Positions 1 through 21,784 of a stretch of 37,518 nucleotides of DNA are shown here, in pieces (position 1 is the stretch's first letter; each line of letters opens with the position of its first letter). The stretch is from Candidatus Baldrarchaeota archaeon (GTDB taxonomy: Archaea; Asgardarchaeota; Baldrarchaeia; Baldrarchaeales; DXJG01). The position numbers were made by a program, and so were the translations under genes. The notes under the pieces are model-generated. The model had not been told where the DNA came from, ran no database searches, and saw only the letters and a list, made by a program, of their open reading frames with translations. Where the stretch lies: contig JAEOSG010000009.1 in the NCBI GenBank assembly GCA_016840485.1, forward strand, positions 1-37,518, in the 5' to 3' direction.

Positions 1-510
1 TTTTTCTGTTGCTTTGTTGTAGCTTTCAAGCCCAAGGAGAGCGTTTATTATTTTTTCTCTGCTTTGTCCTTTTAGTTCTAGGAGTTTGTCTAGTTCTTTT
101 TGTGCTACTATGTTTGTTACTAGGACCTCGTTGAATGACAGGCCTCCAAGCAGATTTTTTATGAACTTGTTTGTTTCTTGTATTGTTAATGCTTGTGGAA
201 CTAGCCCGTTAGATGTTATTTTGTATATTTTTGCGTGTGTTTCTGTTCTTTTCAGTATTCTTTGTACTAGGTATTGTTGGCCGTTCACTGTGAATGTTAG
301 TTTTATTTTTGCTATGTTTGATTGATAGTTTATAGCTAGTTCTTTTGTTCCACGCATAAGTTTTCCGAATAGGGCGTATAGTATTGCTTCTAGTATTGTT
401 GATTTTCCAGCTTCGTTTGGCCCCTTTATTATAAGCATTCCTTGCGGAAAGTCTAGTGTTATGTTTAGTTTTCTGAAGTTGTGAGCTTCTAGGCGGTTTA
501 GGATCACCAT
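1..510 (-). CDS. rad50: Rad50 / SbcC-like ATPase, N-terminal part (runs off left edge)
   Basis: Absent from the ORF track because it has no stop in the window. From the ATG at 510 the reading frame stays open for 170 codons to base 1. Residues 1-20 form the strand preceding the P-loop; the Walker A motif GPNEAGKST lies near residue 30, followed by the helix ILEAILYALFG. A Q-loop-like stretch, IVAQKEL, lies near residue 145. This is the N-terminal half of an ABC-type ATPase head; the coiled coil, zinc hook and C-terminal lobe lie outside. Rad50 partners Mre11 in processing double-strand breaks. The start overlaps the mre11 stop by 7 nt, so the two are translationally coupled. The Walker A carries Glu-Ala where many Rad50 proteins have Gly-x-Gly. 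Identity as Rad50 rests on the P-loop plus the operon. Confidence 0.92.
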   Translation of the reverse strand, partial: MVILNRLEAHNFRKLNITLDFPQGMLIIKGPNEAGKSTILEAILYALFGKLMRGTKELAINYQSNIAKIKLTFTVNGQQYLVQRILKRTETHAKIYKITSNGLVPQALTIQETNKFIKNLLGGLSFNEVLVTNIVAQKELDKLLELKGQSREKIINALLGLESYNKATEK

Positions 511-1667
511 GCCCCCGCCTCTTCAAGTTTTTCTACGCCTATTTTCTTTGCTAATTCAAGTATTCTTCGCCGCTGTGGGTTGTTTTCTTTTTGTATTAGT
601 TGATTCATGTAGTCTGTGAAGGCTTTAAGCGGTGTTAATCTTCCTACTGTTTCAAATTTCTCCGCCTTGTATATGAGATCTCTATCGTCTATTATAACAA
701 AGAAGAAGTGATCTAACAGTCTTCTTAGTATTTCATTTCTTTGATATTTTGTTAAGGTGTGTAAAGGTACTTTTCCAGTTATTTGCAGCCTTAAAATGAG
801 TTCTGGGTCTCTATGTTGTAAAGCGTATGATATTATTTCTGTTGTTGGGCTTAACGTGTTTGGTGTGAAATGGTAGGTTAATGTTTTCATTGGTCTCGTA
901 GGTACTTCGATAAACTCTTTGCTTACTATTTTTTCCTGATTTAACTCTATCCATAAGAAGCCCTTTTTCTCCGTTTTTTCTTCTATGAAGCTTCTTCGCT
1001 CAGTGCTTCCAGGATAAGCTACGAGGGTTCTGCTTCGCTGCTTTTCTTTATGTTCATGTATATGTCCCGCTGCTACATAGTTTATTTCACTTGGTATGTT
1101 TGAGAGTCTAACCAATGGCTCATTTACTACGTAAGATGCGAATTCCTGAATTGTGTAGTGTAGCATTAGTATGTTGATGTCTCCCTCTACTCCAGGTTTA
1201 GATTTCCTTAATGGATCCTCCCCTGGGGCTAGATTGAAGTTGTAGGTTAAACCTGATATGCAAACATCTAAGTCGTTTATTTTTACGTGTTCTATTGCAG
1301 GTTTAATTACTCCCGCTAGGTATGTTACGTATCCTGAGGCTGCAAGTTCATCTAGGGGTGAAGCTCCTTCCTCAACTGAACGTGGGGTATCATGATGCCC
1401 TCCTACCAAGAATATTTTTGTTCCTTTGTTGTGTAGGTGTCGAAAATGTTTTAGGATGTGTGTTCTCGGCGGGTTTCTAGGGTTCACTCTATCGTATAGG
1501 TCTCCTGATATTAGGAATAGGTCTGGTTTTCTTTTATCTGCGTAGTCTAAGACATATTTGAAGGCATTCCAAAAATCTCTTCTTCTCTCATTTATTTTAT
1601 GTCGATACATGGTTAAGGCTGGATCCAAGTGGTTGTCCGCTGTGTGCAATATTTTTATCGTTGACAT
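504..1667 (-). CDS. mre11: Mre11-like DNA double-strand break repair nuclease
   Basis: 387-aa calcineurin-like phosphoesterase. Metal-site motifs appear in order: TADNHLD near residue 10 (usual D-x-H), SGDLYDR near 55 (GD-x-x-D), GGHHD near 92 (usual GNHD), LMLHYT near 170 and AAGHIHEH near 200 (GHxH). A C-terminal capping region of about 170 residues follows, as in archaeal Mre11. The enzyme resects broken DNA ends together with Rad50, with HerA-NurA extending resection. The ATG at 1667 has AGAGGTG six bases upstream and sits 2 nt after the herA stop; the C-terminus overlaps rad50. The odd point is motif III, where the conserved metal-binding Asn is replaced by His. Activity is probably retained, since His can also bind metal, but that is inference. 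Confidence 0.93.
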   Translation of the reverse strand: MSTIKILHTADNHLDPALTMYRHKINERRRDFWNAFKYVLDYADKRKPDLFLISGDLYDRVNPRNPPRTHILKHFRHLHNKGTKIFLVGGHHDTPRSVEEGASPLDELAASGYVTYLAGVIKPAIEHVKINDLDVCISGLTYNFNLAPGEDPLRKSKPGVEGDINILMLHYTIQEFASYVVNEPLVRLSNIPSEINYVAAGHIHEHKEKQRSRTLVAYPGSTERRSFIEEKTEKKGFLWIELNQEKIVSKEFIEVPTRPMKTLTYHFTPNTLSPTTEIISYALQHRDPELILRLQITGKVPLHTLTKYQRNEILRRLLDHFFFVIIDDRDLIYKAEKFETVGRLTPLKAFTDYMNQLIQKENNPQRRRILELAKKIGVEKLEEAGAW

Positions 1668-1669
1668 CG

Positions 1670-3301
1670 TTACACCTCTGAGAACATTGTACCCTCTTGA
1701 ACCACGGTTTTCTCTTGGGTTTCTTCTATTTCTTGTAGGATTTTTGCTTCTTCTCTTGCCTGTTTCAGTTTTGTTAAAATGTCTATGTCTGCTCCTCCCT
1801 CTCTTGTGCGTCTGCTCCTTATTTTAACCATTACTGGAACCTTTGTTACTTCACCTACTATTACTGCTTCCCCTACGTTTAAACCTGGGAGATCTCTGAG
1901 CAGAGATTCGCTTAGCCTTTCACTTGACTCCATTATTGCTCTTTGATCCATGGGGTTTGATACTCGAAGTATTATTTGACTGTTGCATTGGCTTAGGGCG
2001 TCTGGATCTACTTTTGAAGGTCTTTGACTTATTAGAGTCATGAATATTCCGAATTTTCTTCCTTCAGCTGCAATAACGTTTATTATTTCTCTGGACATTC
2101 TTCGCCCTTCTCTTTTTCTAGGTATGAATTTGTGGGCTTCCTCTATTATTACGAAGATTGGGTACTGGAAGTTTCCACTTGACACTTCGTTGTAGCAGCT
2201 GTTTAAAATGCGATATGTAATGTAGTCCATGCTTGCATCATTTAAGCCGGAGAGATCTATGACTGACAGTTGAACCGGTTTTAACATTTCTTTTATTGAC
2301 GTGGTTTTTTCTCCGAAAACCTTTAGTTTTTCAAGTTTTCTAACATGTTTTAAGGCGTTAAAAGCATGAGGTGCTTTCTTTTTATTTCCGCTTTTAGCTA
2401 TTTCTTCAAGTTTGCTTACAAGATCCTTATACGTGTAGTCTCCTCCTTTTTCTTCTTTTAGTTCGCTGAGTGCTTCTGATATTATTGCTTTGATGTTTGT
2501 CCATTTTTCAGGTATCTCTAAGATTTCACAGATTTCCTCGTCCGTTAAATCGGAGAACCTAATCGTGTAGTCGTATACGTTGTCTAGTTCCTCTTTAGAA
2601 TATCTTCCCGTGCTGCTGGGATTTCTGAAAATTTTAATTCTATCAGCATATTCGTATCTTGTTCCATCAGGTTTTCTGCTTAGGAAAACGTAGTCTGCAT
2701 GGGGGTCAATGATTATTATCGTGGCTCCTTTTGCTAGCAGTTCTTCTACTAGTACGCCTACTGTGTATGATTTTCCCGCTCCCGTTTGCGCCAATATTGC
2801 TAGATGCCTTTTGAAGCCGTTAACTGATATGTGAACTGGTATTGTGCTTCTCGATATTAGGTAGCCTATGTGTAGTCCTTCTTCTTCGGGGTACGAGAAG
2901 AATTCTTGTACTAGTTCGTCTGGTGCTAGGTAAACTTCGTTTCCCGGGTATATTGCTCTTCTCGGTATCAAAATTTCTTTTTTTCCGTTGATTTCAGCCA
3001 TGTATCCCAGGGTTCTTGCTTGGCAAATTACGTTAACATCTTCTATTCCTGCGTGGAACATTCTCTCTAGGGCTTCAAGATCTAAATCTATGTTGTAGGA
3101 TGTGCTTCTCGATATTACTCCTGTTACTTGTGCCAGTACCTGTACTTTTTGTACGGTTCCTCCTACGTCTTCTTTTGAGTAAACTATGACGTATTCGAAT
3201 TTTGGTGGGTGGTTTTCTTTGTCTGCTACGAAAAGGAATTCTGTTGGGGATGCTTCTCCAACTATTCTTCCGAGAAGTTTGAGACTACGGGTATTTGACA
3301 C
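1670..3301 (-). CDS. herA: HerA bipolar DNA helicase/translocase
   Basis: 543-aa HerA/FtsK-superfamily ATPase. An N-terminal HAS-barrel-like region covers roughly residues 1-160. Walker A, AQTGAGKSYT, is near residue 178, and a hydrophobic Walker B strand ending IIEEAHKF is near 395. An arginine-finger candidate, SQRPSK, follows. HerA forms a hexameric ring that works with NurA to degrade one DNA strand at broken ends during homologous recombination. The start is GTG at 3301 with GAGGG nine bases upstream, inside the end of nurA (17-nt overlap); mre11 follows after 2 nt. Length and motif order match archaeal HerA. No lesion is seen. Confidence 0.95.
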   Translation of the reverse strand: MSNTRSLKLLGRIVGEASPTEFLFVADKENHPPKFEYVIVYSKEDVGGTVQKVQVLAQVTGVISRSTSYNIDLDLEALERMFHAGIEDVNVICQARTLGYMAEINGKKEILIPRRAIYPGNEVYLAPDELVQEFFSYPEEEGLHIGYLISRSTIPVHISVNGFKRHLAILAQTGAGKSYTVGVLVEELLAKGATIIIIDPHADYVFLSRKPDGTRYEYADRIKIFRNPSSTGRYSKEELDNVYDYTIRFSDLTDEEICEILEIPEKWTNIKAIISEALSELKEEKGGDYTYKDLVSKLEEIAKSGNKKKAPHAFNALKHVRKLEKLKVFGEKTTSIKEMLKPVQLSVIDLSGLNDASMDYITYRILNSCYNEVSSGNFQYPIFVIIEEAHKFIPRKREGRRMSREIINVIAAEGRKFGIFMTLISQRPSKVDPDALSQCNSQIILRVSNPMDQRAIMESSERLSESLLRDLPGLNVGEAVIVGEVTKVPVMVKIRSRRTREGGADIDILTKLKQAREEAKILQEIEETQEKTVVQEGTMFSEV

Positions 3302-4625
3302 GTCTTACATCCCTCGTATGTTCTATCAAGATTTTAAGCTCTTTCATTAAGGCTGATTCATAAATGGTTATAAGATCTCTTTGTTTGAGCTTAACTTTCA
3401 GGTCAACCTCTTCTAATAAAACGTTGTAGTGTTTTGGTCCAGCATAAAAACTGTTTAACATGTTTAGTATCCATTCAAGTTTATTCTCGGAGTAAGGGGT
3501 CTCGTAGCTTTTTACGTCATCGATGTGATAGTTAAATCCAAGTGTCCAGCCGGGAACATCTATTCGCAGCGGAATTTCATTTTTTCCTGGGATGTAATAG
3601 AACATGTAGATTGCGGGGTATTCGAATATTTTTAGTAAAATTTTCTTGGCTTTTTCTACTATTTCTTCTCCTTCTTCGACTAGAGCTTTTGAAAAATTGT
3701 TTTCAATGTAGGTTTCTAAGGTTCCGCTCTCGAAAGCATACAGTAGTGGGTCGAGGGCAGGTGTTGGTATTCCTAAAATAAGTGGAGTTGTGTATCCCGG
3801 TTCTTTTATGAGACTAGATATGATTTGGATGTCTGGTCTCGAGATTAAAGCCTCTTTGAAAACTTCTTTGATTTCAGAGGGTATTGTGGTTTCTTTTGAG
3901 AGTTTTTCTATTTTCCTCAAAGCGTTTCTAGGTCTTTTCCAAATTTCACTCCAGCTAGACAATACTGCTGTTTCCGTTTCAGAGTTTAATGAGCTACGTG
4001 TAAGGTGGTGTTTTAGTTTGTGAGTGAGTAGGATTCTTCCTAAAAGTCTTGATCTTGAATCTTTGCTTACACCTATTATTGGTATGTTTTTCTCCTTAGA
4101 TTTTTTGAGAATGTTGCTGTAAGTTTCTATGTAATCTAACATGAAAGATTGATAACCAGGTATTTCTGAGTCTTTTGGTACATGTGACATTCTACCGTAG
4201 AGGGAACCGTCTAAAAACAATACTCGGCTATTTAAATCTTCATTGTAATTGTTTAAACATTTTAGGGAAACTAAATGTTCTAGGTGCTCCCTCATTCGAC
4301 TTCTAAAAATTACAAGATCGTTTCTTTTCCTCGGATCGTAAAAGATGTTTACTTTTAATTCCCTACATTCTTTACGGGTATTTGACAGTGCTAATGCTCG
4401 GCAAACATGAATAATTACGCCATCCCTATATTCAATAATGCCGTCGCTACTGTCTACGGCGAAAACTTCTCCCTTAAAATTTTGAATATCGGGAAGGGAA
4501 TTCCAGTATTTAGGGAAAAGACTTTCATATAGTTGAAGTTTGTCTTTTGAAATTGTTAAAAGTTTCTTTATTTTGTCTTTGCTTTGACGGATTTCATAGA
4601 GAAATAAATCTAGGAACCGTGGCAT
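3285..4625 (-). CDS. nurA: NurA 5'-3' nuclease
   Basis: 446-aa NurA-domain protein, first gene of the resection operon. The catalytic Asp of motif I is in FAVDSSDG near residue 56, preceded by a helical N-terminus. A second acidic motif, LFLDGSL, is near residue 138, and a late HIDDVK region is near 367, both in the order expected for the RNase H-like NurA fold. NurA is the nuclease partner of HerA. The length is at the upper end for archaeal NurA. No ribosome site precedes the ATG; instead a TATA-like box lies about 26 nt upstream, so the message is probably leaderless. The C-terminus overlaps herA by 17 nt. Confidence 0.9.
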   Translation of the reverse strand: MPRFLDLFLYEIRQSKDKIKKLLTISKDKLQLYESLFPKYWNSLPDIQNFKGEVFAVDSSDGIIEYRDGVIIHVCRALALSNTRKECRELKVNIFYDPRKRNDLVIFRSRMREHLEHLVSLKCLNNYNEDLNSRVLFLDGSLYGRMSHVPKDSEIPGYQSFMLDYIETYSNILKKSKEKNIPIIGVSKDSRSRLLGRILLTHKLKHHLTRSSLNSETETAVLSSWSEIWKRPRNALRKIEKLSKETTIPSEIKEVFKEALISRPDIQIISSLIKEPGYTTPLILGIPTPALDPLLYAFESGTLETYIENNFSKALVEEGEEIVEKAKKILLKIFEYPAIYMFYYIPGKNEIPLRIDVPGWTLGFNYHIDDVKSYETPYSENKLEWILNMLNSFYAGPKHYNVLLEEVDLKVKLKQRDLITIYESALMKELKILIEHTRDVRRVKYP

Positions 4626-6021: not shown

Positions 6022-6732
6022 TTATATGATTTCTGTTAATATTTTGTATAGTTTTTCTATGTTTTGTCCTGTTAGGGCCGATATTGGAACTACTTGGTGA
6101 TTTGGGTAGAATTTTTTCACTAATTCCGGTTTTGCTTCTGGTAGGTCTATTTTATTCGCCACTATGATTGTTGGTTTTCTTTTTGCTTCCAGAGTTCCTA
6201 TTATTATGATGTTTATTTGTTCGTAGGGCATTTTTGTAGAGTCTATAACGGTTATTGCTGCGTCTATTTCATCCATTGACTCTATTGCCTTTGTTATTCC
6301 TTTTAGTGCTTCTTTTGTCCGTTGAATGGCTTCGGATTCGCTTAAGCCGTATTTGATGAACTCTAGGTGGCTTATTTTCGTTGCTAGCCCAGGTGTGTCT
6401 AATATGGTTAGCTGAAGATTTTTCCCATTTATGTTTAAGTTGAGGTTTTCTATTTTTATTACCTCTCTGGTTTCATGGGGTATTTCTGAAACTACTCCTT
6501 TTGGTTCAACGTTACAGTCCATTGCTATCCTATTTGCCAGTGTTGTTTTCCCAGCATTCGGTGCGCCATAAATACCTAGAACCACCTTTTTCTCTCTTTC
6601 CCCAAACAGCTTACGGATCCATTCCTCCGCTTCTTCCAGTCCAAATGTATCTCTTCTTCCCTTTAAAGGCTGTAGAGTGTTTTCGCCCTTGTACAGGTTT
6701 AAAGACGACAAACCTTTCCCCCATAGTAGCAT
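6022..6732 (-). CDS. Era-like GTPase (paralogue 1)
   Basis: 236-aa P-loop GTPase. G1 is GAPNAGKTT near residue 57; a G2 candidate Thr lies in PHETRE; G3 is DTPG near 113; G4 NKID is near 193; G5 SALTG is near 218. All nucleotide-binding motifs are intact. It is closely similar over its whole G domain to the protein at 20329-20946. It differs by a longer N-terminus (about 50 residues before the G domain, against 20) and has no DUF2073 neighbour. The start is uncertain: ATG at 6732 has no ribosome site and a TTTAAAA element only about 16 nt upstream. Function is unknown; Era-like GTPases often act in ribosome assembly or membrane-associated switching. Confidence 0.85.
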   Translation of the reverse strand: MLLWGKGLSSLNLYKGENTLQPLKGRRDTFGLEEAEEWIRKLFGEREKKVVLGIYGAPNAGKTTLANRIAMDCNVEPKGVVSEIPHETREVIKIENLNLNINGKNLQLTILDTPGLATKISHLEFIKYGLSESEAIQRTKEALKGITKAIESMDEIDAAITVIDSTKMPYEQINIIIIGTLEAKRKPTIIVANKIDLPEAKPELVKKFYPNHQVVPISALTGQNIEKLYKILTEII

Positions 6733-17922: not shown

Positions 17923-19119
17923 ATGGGGGATGGTGGGCTTTTAGATTTCATTGTGGAGATATGTGACAAGGTTGGGGCAAGACCTCCAGGTAGCGAGGCT
18001 GAAAGAAAAACTGCTCAAATAATTGCGGAAAGACTGGAAAAATACTGCGATGAGGTTTTTGTCGAGGAGTTTGTTACTTGTCCTAGGGTTCTTCAAGCTC
18101 TCATAGATTTCGTTGTGTATTCTTATCTTGTTGCTCTTATTCTCTACCTGTTTTTACCGTATCTTTCTGCTATTTTCGTAGCTATCGGGTTTTCGGTGTT
18201 TTATTTGACTAGGTTTCGTGGAAAGGAGATTTTGGATAAGTTTGCTAGAAAAGCTAGGTCACAGAACGTTATTGGTCGAATTAAACCTACAGGCAAGGTG
18301 AAAAAATATGTAATTTTTTCAGGTCATCACGATTCAGCTTATATGATGCCGCTTTTTCAACCAAAATATCTTCGTTACGTTCCTTTGATTCAAAATATGG
18401 GGGTTATTGGCGCAATTTCATTACTTATTTTGTCCATTTTAAAATCACTGGTGATTTGGGGAGTTGAAGTATTGGATTGGAGACCTGTTTTCGGGGTTTC
18501 CATTTACGATTTGCTCTTGGTAATTCCTATAATTGGATTACTTTTTGCTTTATTTTTTAAGTTAAATATGGTGACAAAAATTCCTGTGATAGGAGCAAAT
18601 GATAATCTTTCTGCTGTTGCCGTCGTTTTAGGTTTAGCTGAAATCGTTTCTCAGAATAGACCGAAAAACGTTGAAGCATTTTTTGTCTCTTTTGGATCGG
18701 AGGAACCTGGACTTAAAGGGTCACGTAGATTTGTGGAAATGCATCCTAGTGTTGCTAAAAATGCTTATCTGATAAATTTGGAGATGCTTGGTGCTGGAGA
18801 ACTGTTTATAGATGTGAAAGAAAATTCGATAGGTGTTAAACATTCAAAAGAACTGGCTGAGATTGTTATGAATGCTGGAGAAAGGATTGGGCTTAAGGTG
18901 GATACTGTTGCTTTACCTTACGGTGATACCGATGCTGCCTCTTTTTCTCGAAAAGGTTTTCACGCTATCACAATAATTGCTTTGAGTCCAAGATTGGAGT
19001 TAATGAAATGGCATCTTCCCGATGATGTTCCAGAAAATATAAGTGAGGAAAACTTACAAAAAGCTTTGAAACTATGTAAGGCAGTGCTAGAAGATATTGA
19101 TAAAATGTTAGAAAACTAA
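17923..19119 (+). CDS. M28-family metallopeptidase with inserted membrane helices
   Basis: 398 aa. The zinc-site residues of M28 aminopeptidases appear in order: GHHDS near residue 134, GANDN near 224 (shared Asp), GSEEPG near 258 (Glu base plus ligand), INLEMLG near 286 and KWHLPDD near 362 (final His). Two hydrophobic blocks interrupt the fold, about residues 60-97 and 160-215, each long enough for two membrane crossings. The active domain would thus be tethered to the membrane. There is no cleavable signal peptide. The promoter region is the AT-rich 130 bp upstream. The peptide substrate is unknown. Confidence 0.88.
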   Translation: MGDGGLLDFIVEICDKVGARPPGSEAERKTAQIIAERLEKYCDEVFVEEFVTCPRVLQALIDFVVYSYLVALILYLFLPYLSAIFVAIGFSVFYLTRFRGKEILDKFARKARSQNVIGRIKPTGKVKKYVIFSGHHDSAYMMPLFQPKYLRYVPLIQNMGVIGAISLLILSILKSLVIWGVEVLDWRPVFGVSIYDLLLVIPIIGLLFALFFKLNMVTKIPVIGANDNLSAVAVVLGLAEIVSQNRPKNVEAFFVSFGSEEPGLKGSRRFVEMHPSVAKNAYLINLEMLGAGELFIDVKENSIGVKHSKELAEIVMNAGERIGLKVDTVALPYGDTDAASFSRKGFHAITIIALSPRLELMKWHLPDDVPENISEENLQKALKLCKAVLEDIDKMLEN

Positions 19120-19134
19120 TCTCTTAGCATTCTA

Positions 19135-19332
19135 TTATACTGCTTCCCAGTATGTTTTTGGTCTACCTCTATGGTTGCTTTTTACTGTTTTTCTTCTCAC
19201 TTTCCCCTTTAAGGACAGTTTTACTAATTTAACGTACAAAGTTGTTAGAGGTATCCCTGTTATTTCCATTAGTTCTTTTCTTGTCATCGGTCCCTTTTCT
19301 CTGAGAATTTCGAGCAGTTTATCTTCAAGCAT
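19135..19332 (-). CDS. 65-aa winged-helix regulator (twin A)
   Basis: A single helix-turn-helix domain: LLEILREKGPMTRKELMEITGI, then recognition helix LTTLYVKLVKLSLKG and a basic wing ending RGRPKTYWEAV. It fits the small MarR/TrmB-like winged-helix type without a sensing domain. The protein at 22396-22593 has the same length and the same ending and is clearly a paralogue. The ATG at 19332 has CAGGTTG upstream and a TATATC element near 19375. It ends 15 bp from the M28 gene, convergent. Such bare DNA-binding domains probably act as dimers; the target is unknown. Confidence 0.82.
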   Translation of the reverse strand: MLEDKLLEILREKGPMTRKELMEITGIPLTTLYVKLVKLSLKGKVRRKTVKSNHRGRPKTYWEAV

Positions 19333-19398
19333 TTTTACAACCTGCCATACTGATAAAAAGAACTACACATGAGATATAATGGATTAAAACTTTAAAAG

Positions 19399-19932
19399 TT
19401 ATTGGTTTGTTTTAATTTTTGATATTTTTGTTGGTTCTAAAAGCCGTAGCAATGCGTAAGTTGGCAAAGGTTGGACCACTATTCCTGGAACCATAGATTC
19501 TGCTATTACTTCCCTTCCTCTGTGAGAAACCGTTATGTAGCCATGTTCGCTTTTTATTTTTATTTTGTTTACATTAAACTTCACGGCCTTATAGGCTTGA
19601 ACGCACTTTTCTTCCCCTATTGTTTCAAGTTTTTCTCTTAACGATAAGAAATATTTTTCAAACTTTTCTCTCAGCTTCCTTTCTCTTCTTAATGCTTTTA
19701 ACAGCAATTCCTTTTCTTTTTGGTGATGTAATTCTGTTTTCCAAATTATTCTTGTCCCTCTTCTTTCTCTAACCGTCTTGATTAAGTCTAAAGCCTTTAA
19801 TACTGCAATAATGTCATATATCCTTCTTTGCGGTATTCTTAGCTTCTGTGCCAACTCTAAGCTCAAATAACCTCGTTCTCCGGATCCCTTGAGAATTTCA
19901 ACGACCTTCCTTGTAATTTCCACTAGTCGCAT
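19399..19932 (-). CDS. E2F/DP-like winged-helix protein with coiled coil
   Basis: 177 aa. Residues 1-68 align well with the E2F/DP DNA-binding domain: a first helix (ITRKVVEILKGS), LSLELAQKLRIP, the recognition segment QRRIYDIIAVLKALDLI and a wing ending RIIWK. E2F proteins show RRIYDITNVLEGI at the same place, and RRxYD is their known base-contacting motif. Residues 70-110 are a heptad-like, highly charged coiled coil, where E2F/DP proteins have their dimerisation helix. The last 65 residues look beta-rich. ATG at 19932 has GGAGAGG six bases upstream and a TATA-like TATTTAAG about 70 nt upstream. A generic archaeal winged helix with convergent resemblance remains possible. Confidence 0.85.
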   Translation of the reverse strand: MRLVEITRKVVEILKGSGERGYLSLELAQKLRIPQRRIYDIIAVLKALDLIKTVRERRGTRIIWKTELHHQKEKELLLKALRRERKLREKFEKYFLSLREKLETIGEEKCVQAYKAVKFNVNKIKIKSEHGYITVSHRGREVIAESMVPGIVVQPLPTYALLRLLEPTKISKIKTNQ

Positions 19933-19998
19933 CGATACCTCTCCATATCAAAAGAGTATTAGTTGTATGTTCTTAGATAATACGTAGGAATATCTTTC

Positions 19999-20007
19999 TT
20001 AAATACT
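19999..20007 (-). promoter_or_regulatory. TATA box of the E2F-like gene
   Basis: GTATTTAAG on the minus strand, about 70 nt before the ATG and about 45 bp downstream (in the direction of transcription) of the GGCGCC palindrome. Confidence 0.45.
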
Positions 20008-20046
20008 TGCTTACTTCGGACGCGATACCCAGGTAGAGTTTTTGGA

Positions 20047-20057
20047 TTTGGCGCCAA
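20047..20057. promoter_or_regulatory. E2F-type site TTTGGCGCCAA upstream of the E2F-like gene
   Basis: Contains the 10-bp palindrome TTGGCGCCAA and an exact match to the eukaryotic E2F consensus TTTSSCGC. It lies in the region between the divergent E2F-like and Era-like GTPase genes, where a regulator of both could bind. It is a conspicuous GC-rich island in an AT-rich intergenic region. Binding is inference; GGCGCC alone occurs once more upstream of a gene, near 36508. Confidence 0.4.
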
Positions 20058-20328
20058 TTTCAATTTTGGTAGAAATAGATATTACAACTTTAAAAAGACT
20101 TTAACTTAAATTTCAAATTTTACCTATTAGTCGAAATGAATCACATTAGAGTTGTAAGCTTCACTTGAAACGAACTAATGTATAAATGTTGCTTTAAACT
20201 TGTTTTGCAAAATCAAATCGAGTTAACGTTTGAGTTAATCGTTGCTCAACTACGAATATTAGTCAAGTATTACCTAGCAATTTATTGGTGATTTACCCAC
20301 TTTAAAGAGCCTACAAAACGATGAGGAT

Positions 20329-20946
20329 ATGGGATTTAAATTGGCTTGGCTCCTAAGACTGTTTGGAAGAAAGAAGAGAAGATTAGTTTTAGGTATCTAT
20401 GGCGCGCCAAATGTTGGAAAGACGACGCTAGCAAATAGAATAGCGAAAGATTGTGGCGTTGAACCAAAAGGAATAGTTTCGGAGATACCGCATGAAACCA
20501 GGATAGTAGAGAAGGTAGAGGAACTTAGTTTAAATGTGGATGGAAAAGTTCTTCAAATGACTGTTTTAGATATGCCTGGTTTGGCAACGAAAATAAATTA
20601 TCGAGACTTTTTAAATTACGGTTTAAGCGAGGAAGAGGCAGTAAAGAGGGCTAAAGAAGCGATAAAAGGGATAATAGAGGCTGTAAAGTGGCTAGACAAT
20701 GTAAATGCAGCTATCGCTGTGATTGATTCAACTAAAGTTCCCTATGATCAGGTAAATATTATGTTAATTGGGAATTTAGAGGCTAAAGGTATACCTGTGA
20801 TTATTGCTGCGAATAAAATAGATTTACCTGAGGCTAGACCGCATTTAATAAAGGAGGTTTTTCCTAATCATGAAGTGATTCCTATTTCAGCTTTAACAGG
20901 TCAAAACATGGATAAGCTTTATGAAGCTTTGGTAAAAATTGCTTGA
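20329..20946 (+). CDS. Era-like GTPase (paralogue 2, DUF2073-associated)
   Basis: 205 aa. G1 is GAPNVGKTT near residue 26, a PHETR switch Thr near 50, G3 DMPG near 82, G4 NKID near 162 and G5 SALTG near 187. It shares most positions with the GTPase at 6022-6732 but lacks the long N-terminus. It overlaps the ribosome site of the DUF2073 gene, a pairing that recurs in archaea, so the two products probably act together. The ATG at 20329 has GAGGAT just upstream and a TATA-like element at about minus 27. Role unknown; ribosome-linked switching is a guess from the Era-like group. Confidence 0.9.
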   Translation: MGFKLAWLLRLFGRKKRRLVLGIYGAPNVGKTTLANRIAKDCGVEPKGIVSEIPHETRIVEKVEELSLNVDGKVLQMTVLDMPGLATKINYRDFLNYGLSEEEAVKRAKEAIKGIIEAVKWLDNVNAAIAVIDSTKVPYDQVNIMLIGNLEAKGIPVIIAANKIDLPEARPHLIKEVFPNHEVIPISALTGQNMDKLYEALVKIA

Positions 20947-20955
20947 GGTGTCTGT

Positions 20956-21279
20956 GTGAAAATAGATTTCATTTCTAAAAATGCCTTAAAGCGGCTTAAA
21001 ACAAGGGAAAAGATAGATATGATATTAAGATTGGTGAAGAATAATACAATAATAGTGTTGGAGGGAAATTTATCTCCAGGAGAACAAATAGAACTAGTTA
21101 AAGAAACTATGAGGCAGATAGATCCGCTAAGCTTTATTGGAATCGAAATTATTGATTTTACTAATGCAGAAAAGTATGGAGCTGCAAAGAACACCGCCTC
21201 GCTTACGATAATAGCGCCCGGAGGAAAAGTTGAAGTTATAAAGAAAACGCCTAATTATCTCTCAATGCAGGTTTCTTAA
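20956..21279 (+). CDS. DUF2073-family protein
   Basis: 107 aa. Predicted alternating helices and strands: KRLKTREKIDMILRLVKNNT, then the strand IIVLEGNLSPGEQ, a helix ELVKETMRQI and a final strand region with TIIAPGGKVEVIKK. This pattern and the position straight after an Era-like GTPase match the archaeal DUF2073 family, for which no function is established. Start is GTG at 20956; GAGGTG lies about 6 nt upstream and overlaps the GTPase stop codon, so the pair is translationally coupled. Confidence 0.85.
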   Translation: MKIDFISKNALKRLKTREKIDMILRLVKNNTIIVLEGNLSPGEQIELVKETMRQIDPLSFIGIEIIDFTNAEKYGAAKNTASLTIIAPGGKVEVIKKTPNYLSMQVS

Positions 21280-21328
21280 CTTTTTATCTTTGTTTTAAAG
21301 CAGCTTGTGATTGAAAAAATAAAAGTTT

Positions 21329-21784
21329 TTAGGGAAGTTGCATGGTTTGATATTCTTTCCATAGTTTCATGTAGTCTATTTTTCCAACGCTTGTTTTTGG
21401 CAGCGTATCTACGAATACGAATTTGTCTGGTATCCACCATTTAGCTATTTTTCCTTGTTCAACTGCTTTTGTTAAATATTTTCTGAACTCGTCTTCTGCT
21501 GGTGGTTTTTCTTTATATTCTGGGTTTAAAACTATTAGGGCTACTGGCCTTTCTCCCCATTTTGAGCTTGGAACACCTATTACAGCTACTTCCGATACTG
21601 CTGGGCGCATGGACAATAGGTCTTCTATTAGTAGGTGTGGTATCCATTCTGAACAGTCTTAGAGAGCAATTAGTTGCTTCACTGTTTTCGGGTGTAATTA
21701 GGTTTTTTGCGAGAGCTTTTGTGTGTGTAGGGGCGGTTCAAACCATTCTTTTTCAATCGAGCATACAACTTTTGCACTCGGCAC
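21329..21784 (-). pseudogene. Gutted acyl-CoA synthetase (AMP-binding) remnant
   Basis: About 103 codons of the C-terminal domain of an acyl/AMP ligase survive: EWIPHLLIEDLLSM, AVIGVPSSKWGERP, and near the end LPKTSVGKID with the catalytic Lys. Upstream of a stop codon (near 21660) the N-terminal domain of some 400 residues is absent. A start-like signal remains: GGAGGT about 6 nt before a GTG at 21784, followed by 28 codons in another frame ending at a stop. The simplest reading is an internal deletion of more than 1 kb that left the start region and the C-terminus. It cannot form adenylates as it stands. Confidence 0.75.

Follow-up and report, generated by a model that had tools for sequence, protein, structure and literature searches.

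We propose that a 177-amino acid protein encoded in a Baldrarchaeia genome is probably a homodimeric, self-regulating E2F-type transcription factor of Asgard archaea, which binds palindromes at its own promoter. Of all microbial groups, Asgard archaea stand closest to the ancestor of complex cells. In animals and plants, E2F/DP drives cells into DNA replication, although the origin of this system remains open. The gene lies in a 37,518-nucleotide stretch of DNA (hereafter "the window"), which is contig C299 of a 3.2-Mb Baldrarchaeia (Asgard) metagenome-assembled genome estimated to be 91% complete and 8% contaminated. In the mechanism we envisage, the winged helix would use RRIYD to contact a CG-core site, and two subunits would be held together by a 40-residue helix. 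The dimerization region would be completed by a small beta domain, which may correspond to the E2F marked box in minimal form. Such a dimer would regulate its own gene by binding the E2F-type palindromes that lie upstream, with repression being, as a guess, somewhat likelier than activation. Dimerization, DNA binding, autoregulation, and the sign of the latter are inferred here, and a role in the cell cycle or in the control of replication genes is not demonstrated by our data.

The existence of an Asgard E2F family is already known, since the 2024 review "The Archaeal Cell Cycle" cites reported Asgard E2F homologs (PMC7617429), and the view of the family as eukaryotic machinery, held in the original prediction made from the window sequence, is therefore outdated. 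The layout, binding sites, neighborhood, and paralogs of Asgard E2F were, however, undescribed in the literature that we searched, with the caveat that the primary papers behind this review could say more. Within these limits, an E2F-like layout, CG-core sites upstream of the E2F gene, and a paralog linked to ArvA/ArvB genes appear to be new. The corresponding features are collected in Table 1.

Table 1. Features of the window discussed in the text, with positions counted from its first nucleotide.
Feature	Position	Strand	Basis
E2F-type transcription factor gene (177 aa, ATG start)	19399..19932	-	clean ORF; PF02319 E = 1.1e-9
E2F/DP-type winged-helix DNA-binding domain (residues 1-64)	19741..19932	-	pLDDT about 90-95
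RRIYD (residues 36-40) in predicted recognition helix 35-47	19813..19827	-	invariance in alignments
40-residue single helix (residues 67-106), probable coiled-coil dimerization helix	19615..19734	-	AlphaFold2 pLDDT mostly about 92-97; coiled-coil profile matches
Four-stranded beta domain (residues 123-156), possible minimal marked-box counterpart	19465..19566	-	AlphaFold2; weak tail-model PDB ranking
Candidate E2F site: palindrome TTTGGCGCCAAT, about 120 bp ahead of the E2F gene	20047..20058	.	shuffle test
OapA/ArvA-like small GTPase gene, divergent from E2F, second copy in the genome	20329..20946	+	
OapB/ArvB gene (PF09846), second copy in the genome	20956..21279	+	E = 9.2e-20
Segment of about 2.2 kb with E2F, OapA, and OapB that sister genome G001 lacks at the corresponding position	19102..21327	.	

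DNA-binding domain and predicted layout

The E2F gene is an intact open reading frame read in one clean frame from the minus strand. In a Pfam profile search, residues 3-55 of its product matched the E2F_TDP domain (PF02319; E = 1.1e-9, 38.3 bits for a curated cut-off of 25.7), which was the clear top family, far ahead of the next-best winged-helix profile, TrmB (PF01978; E = 0.025, 14.9 bits, under its cut-off of 25.6). When the PDB was searched with the window protein alone, the matches obtained were E2F8 (6.5e-7) and E2F4 (0.08), while a profile of 21 homologs retrieved E2F8 (8.9e-12), E2F4 (2.1e-8), and DP2 (0.0037), i.e., all three solved E2F/DP DNA-binding structures as its top three, with a sole other match at 0.65. 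The DNA-recognition motif of E2F is RRxYD (PMC8564135), and RR[IVL]YD was found in 63/63 homologous sequences collected, a set that includes some genes fetched twice. Residues R36, R37, Y39, D40, L45, and the wing residue W64 were invariant in both alignments. Domain membership and conservation are thus directly supported, and on this sequence evidence the winged helix genuinely belongs to the E2F/DP family of DNA-binding domains.

A full-length AlphaFold2 model (42 sequences, mean pLDDT 83.7) placed three helices in the N-terminal part (3-17, 24-31, and 35-47), followed by wing strands 51-56 and 59-64. The original prediction of an N-terminal E2F/DP winged helix, with RRIYD inside the recognition helix and a wing ending in an aromatic residue (W64, at the end of strand 59-64), was borne out on each of these points. 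So was its description of the C-terminal part as a coiled-coil-like helix after the DNA-binding domain and a beta-rich tail, since the model contains one long helix at residues 67-106 and four strands at 123-127, 134-138, 141-145, and 152-156. As a structure prediction, this layout is directly supported, while its relationship to that of eukaryotic E2F is less certain. A whole-chain Foldseek search returned generic winged helices, headed by MarR, ArsR, and Rpc34 chains, and did not single out E2F. We also modeled the tail without the DNA-binding domain (28 sequences, pLDDT 78) and compared it with 350,542 PDB chains. Among the 11 matches obtained, the coiled-coil/marked-box (CC-MB) chains of E2F1, E2F4, and E2F5 ranked 1-3, with alignments spanning 95-97 columns, although their E-values (1.7-3.3) are not significant singly. 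Sequence homology between the tail and CC-MB was looked for in three ways and not found: hhalign gave a probability of only 0.2%, PF16421 (E2F_CC-MB) had no match at the E2F loci searched, and the matches of a tail profile search were generic coiled coils. The fact that E2F chains head the fold list once the DNA-binding domain is removed is therefore suggestive of marked-box homology, in a comparison of predicted with solved structures, but does not establish it.

In most of these genomes there is only one E2F-type gene, and hence no separate DP; together with the palindromic candidate sites described below, this makes a homodimer the most likely form of the protein. Dimerization is in this case inferred from the long predicted helix, the palindromic sites, and the presence of mostly one gene per genome, and no dimer model was built. 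Heterodimers are possible in the window genome, which has a second E2F paralog.

Candidate binding sites and regulon searches

The eukaryotic E2F consensus is TTTSSCGC (PMC2891812). In the 396-bp intergenic region upstream of the window E2F gene, which includes the TTTGGCGCCAAT palindrome, TTGGCGCC arose in 6/5000 dinucleotide shuffles, and the looser a-priori pattern TTTSSCGC in 101/5000. TTGGCGCC was present at -125 to -132 in 4/4 Baldrarchaeia E2F genes, including that of the window, whose promoter is otherwise unalignable with the other three. Across three Baldrarchaeia genomes, TTGGCGCC was not concentrated in intergenic DNA, most sites being intragenic, and its conserved intergenic copies were associated with E2F itself, a PRC-barrel-like gene beside a DEAD helicase gene, and a GC-rich element by tRNA-like matches. 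The PRC-barrel-like gene, the only other protein gene with a conserved intergenic upstream copy, is a possible second E2F target. In three Baldrarchaeia genomes (L143 about 1588, L152 about 1471, and L183 about 658), TTGGCGCCACAC is conserved about 100-120 bp upstream of this gene; the product is 112-117 aa long, and the gene is divergent from that of the DEAD helicase.

Candidate sites were also detected in two other Asgard lineages. In two Heimdallarchaeia (L057 and L058), the exact 12-mer TTTGGCGGGAAA is located about 140-175 bp upstream of E2F; each of its strands matches TTTSSCGS, and no other copy was found in 1.87 Mb of sequence searched. It is preceded at a fixed 20-bp spacing by TTTGGAGCCAA, and the element pair is retained in a third Heimdall genome (L059) as TTTCGAGCCAA, where the second site is degenerate. 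In most Thorarchaeia, CG[A/G]AAAATCG-type elements occur at E2F ahead of a BRE/TATA-like sequence, in either orientation and often in two copies. Within 308 kb from 28 Thor loci, 32/33 matches to this motif were ≤260 bp upstream of E2F, and the 11-mer TCGRAAAATCG was rare genome-wide, with 26 sites in six Thor genomes compared with 4 for a reversed control. Importantly, the promoters used to define the Thor motif are those in which its matches were counted, and these genomes are relatives of one another. No convincing conserved DNA motif was identified in the E2F promoters of Hel-, Sif-, and Odinarchaeia or of the f10 group. E2F-like CG-core sites thus precede the E2F gene itself in three separate lineages, with motifs that differ between lineages; the presence of these sites is directly supported, but without binding data the evidence that they are E2F-like targets, i.e., their position upstream of the E2F genes themselves, remains indirect.

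In Thor genomes, copies of TCGAAAAATCG (L190 1961/2569, L201 2043/2642, and L208 2040), without Rfam match, are paired about 600 bp apart in two genomes and followed by a GTGAGTGA-like sequence. One Thor genome (L197 2023) carries TCGAAAAATCG about 90 bp ahead of an actin gene, an arrangement that the scans of other Thor genomes did not turn up.

Searches for a wider regulon gave no replication targets. In three Baldrarchaeia genomes, a replication regulon defined by TTGGCGCC was rejected, as the sites were mostly intragenic and the conserved intergenic ones were not at replication genes. A Thor regulon based on the 26 TCGRAAAATCG sites had mixed targets, none of them replication targets shared among the six genomes, and a search for a Heimdall regulon found no second exact site in 698 kb of one genome. 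Overall, no replication gene was found next to candidate sites in these scans, which were partial and relied on narrow motifs. Since no replication regulon was found near other copies of the sites, autoregulation is a supported inference and cell-cycle control is not. Likewise, no Rb partner could be identified: Baldrarchaeia genomes contained no RB_B match at E ≤ 0.01, and the weak matches in other groups have lengths from which we infer that they are probably TFB-like cyclin folds. Taken as a whole, the protein is a minimal archaeal variant, given that its tail shows no marked box by sequence and that its genome yielded no Rb partner.

These results leave real room for a reading in which the protein is a true E2F relative by its DNA-binding domain but only a narrow autoregulator, or a stress or ligand regulator, with an unrelated beta tail and no cell-cycle role. 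The unsuccessful regulon searches, the absence of a sequence link between tail and marked box, the lack of an Rb-like gene in Baldrarchaeia, and the absence of the gene from about two thirds of the Asgard genomes searched would all fit such a restricted function, whereas the three E2F CC-MB chains at the top of the tail model's PDB matches argue for a related tail, and the limited scope and narrow motifs of the regulon searches weaken the negative result. That the upstream motifs reflect chance or the sites of another factor, with the protein binding something else, seems to us rather unlikely. It would account for the differences in motif between lineages, for the lack of intergenic enrichment of TTGGCGCC, and for the conserved copy ahead of the PRC-barrel-like gene, but less readily for the fact that three separate lineages all have CG-core motifs next to E2F, for a window site that recurs even though its promoter has otherwise lost detectable similarity to those of the paralogs, or for a Heimdall site that fits the eukaryotic consensus exactly on both strands. 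We retain the self-regulating E2F-type homodimer as the preferred reading.

Distribution, genomic context, and origin

The E2F_TDP domain was identified in 76/228 Asgard genomes and 32/62 genera, with every match above cut-off, and homologs also occurred on contigs labeled Thor-, Hel-, Sif/Borr-, Loki-, and Heimdallarchaeota. By comparison, a match above cut-off was obtained in just one of 398 genomes from another archaeal phylum, and in 0/14 control genomes, which indicates that ordinary archaeal winged helices do not trigger the E2F_TDP profile. The original prediction of an archaeal E2F/DP relative would have failed had this profile scored no better than other winged helices; since E2F_TDP is the clear top family and, with one exception, ordinary winged helices in the 398 other genomes stay under its cut-off, it is upheld. 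Its suggestion of a similar binding site gained further, unexpected support from the E2F-type palindromes ahead of the E2F genes themselves. The one exception (L062 5992-6330), on a contig labeled "Bathyarchaeota", is the best-scoring E2F domain of all (50 bits), and may represent a transfer, a mislabeled bin, or an ancient relic. The Odin and f10 Asgard groups (L009, L021, L010, L015, and L017) encode an E2F domain with a different, shorter tail lacking the PGxxVxP beta motif, and this tail type is a second archaeal E2F layout.

The genomic surroundings of these genes are often conserved. In 35/43 loci, including that of the "Bathyarchaeota" contig, E2F is tail to tail with a cyclophilin-like gene (PF04126). 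This gene order (L022-L062, e.g., L002 663-1049), shared from Baldr- and Thorarchaeia to "Bathyarchaeota", is very old and has no known reason. The second E2F gene of the window genome (contig C123) is in this conserved setting, and the window copy is outside it, next to the OapA- and OapB-type genes. OapA has been renamed ArvA, a GTPase driving vesicle formation in haloarchaea (PMC10927574). The window contig carries two OapA/ArvA-like GTPases (6022-6732 and 20329-20946) and one OapB, with an OapA-OapB pair elsewhere in the genome; OapB is single copy in G001, a relative from the same genus, and in G002. In G001 (contig C18), the sequences matching the flanks of the 2.2-kb segment (17938-19101 and 21328-21650) are about 35 bp apart, so that the segment was either gained here or lost there. 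A short ORF next to the edge of the segment (21329-21616) resembles the C-terminal end of an acyl-CoA synthetase, the rest of which is unseen, and is perhaps a remnant.

We considered whether the window contig could be a contaminant. Its Mre11-HerA-NurA cluster (window 1-4625) is 98% identical to that of G002 and collinear with G001, with HerA being a single-copy ortholog (98% to G002, 89% to G001), and a radical-SAM gene on the contig is 97% identical to that of G002. This HerA and radical-SAM orthology, together with the collinearity of the flanks with G001, rules out a contaminant contig and directly supports the location of the paralog, although a local misassembly is not excluded.

Transfer of the gene into Asgard archaea from a eukaryote, or eukaryotic contamination, is very improbable given that 32 genera carry the domain, that the neighboring gene is conserved at most loci, and that the genes are on archaeal contigs with collinear relatives. 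A tree of the DNA-binding domain (68 columns, well supported branches only 2/25) left the E2F versus DP origin unresolved, and its support does not suffice to rule out transfer one way or the other. Finally, an ordinary TrmB-, MarR-, or ArsR-type winged helix that came to resemble E2F by convergence is scarcely credible, for although TrmB is the second profile of the family (best 4.5e-6, in one relative) and MarR, ArsR, and Rpc34 chains lead the whole-chain fold search, E2F_TDP is above cut-off in 21/21 homologs tested and nearly absent from the other phylum, and E2F and DP are the only significant PDB matches of the family profile.

Comparison with known systems

If an Asgard homodimer reads the same palindrome as eukaryotic E2F and regulates its own gene in a feedback loop, then the protein and its regulatory code are both older than eukaryotes. 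As a tentative extension, which we regard as possible without favoring it, the complete module would be pre-eukaryotic, i.e., a homodimer with DNA-binding domain, coiled coil, and proto-marked-box acting on a TTTSSCGC-type palindrome at its own promoter, with the E2F/DP duplication and the addition of Rb coming later. Were this true, the Baldrarchaeia paralog pair would provide a picture of the first step of that duplication. The claim can be tested by combining short duplexes (TTTGGCGCCAAT, TTTGGCGGGAAA, and CGGAAAATCG) with either the 177-aa protein or the 120-aa counterpart from Heimdallarchaeia in purified form. The sharpest prediction is the exact 12-mer TTTGGCGGGAAA ahead of E2F in Heimdallarchaeia, because eukaryotes are usually placed closest to this lineage.

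Compared with eukaryotic E2F1-5 (PF02319 and PF16421), the window protein shares the DNA-binding domain family, RRxYD, the wing aromatic, the domain order from winged helix to helix to beta domain, and E2F-type palindromes at its own promoter. It differs in being only 177 aa long, in lacking an N-terminal arm before helix 1, in probably forming a homodimer, in having a tail without CC-MB sequence match, and in the absence of an Rb partner found in its genome. With DP (TFDP), it shares RRxYD and the winged helix, DP2 being the third PDB match of the family profile, but the match is weaker than to E2F (0.0037 vs 2.1e-8), and DP coiled-coil/marked-box chains are absent from the fold matches of the tail. 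TrmB is the nearest ordinary archaeal winged-helix profile, but its match to the window protein is below cut-off. The atypical E2F7 and E2F8 work without DP. E2F8 is the best PDB match of the window protein, although it has two DNA-binding domains per chain where the window protein has one. The Asgard E2F homologs cited by the 2024 review (PMC7617429) very probably belong to the same family, of which the window protein is a Baldrarchaeia member; the review gives no layout, binding site, neighborhood, or paralog, whereas the window copy is a second paralog, next to ArvA/ArvB genes.
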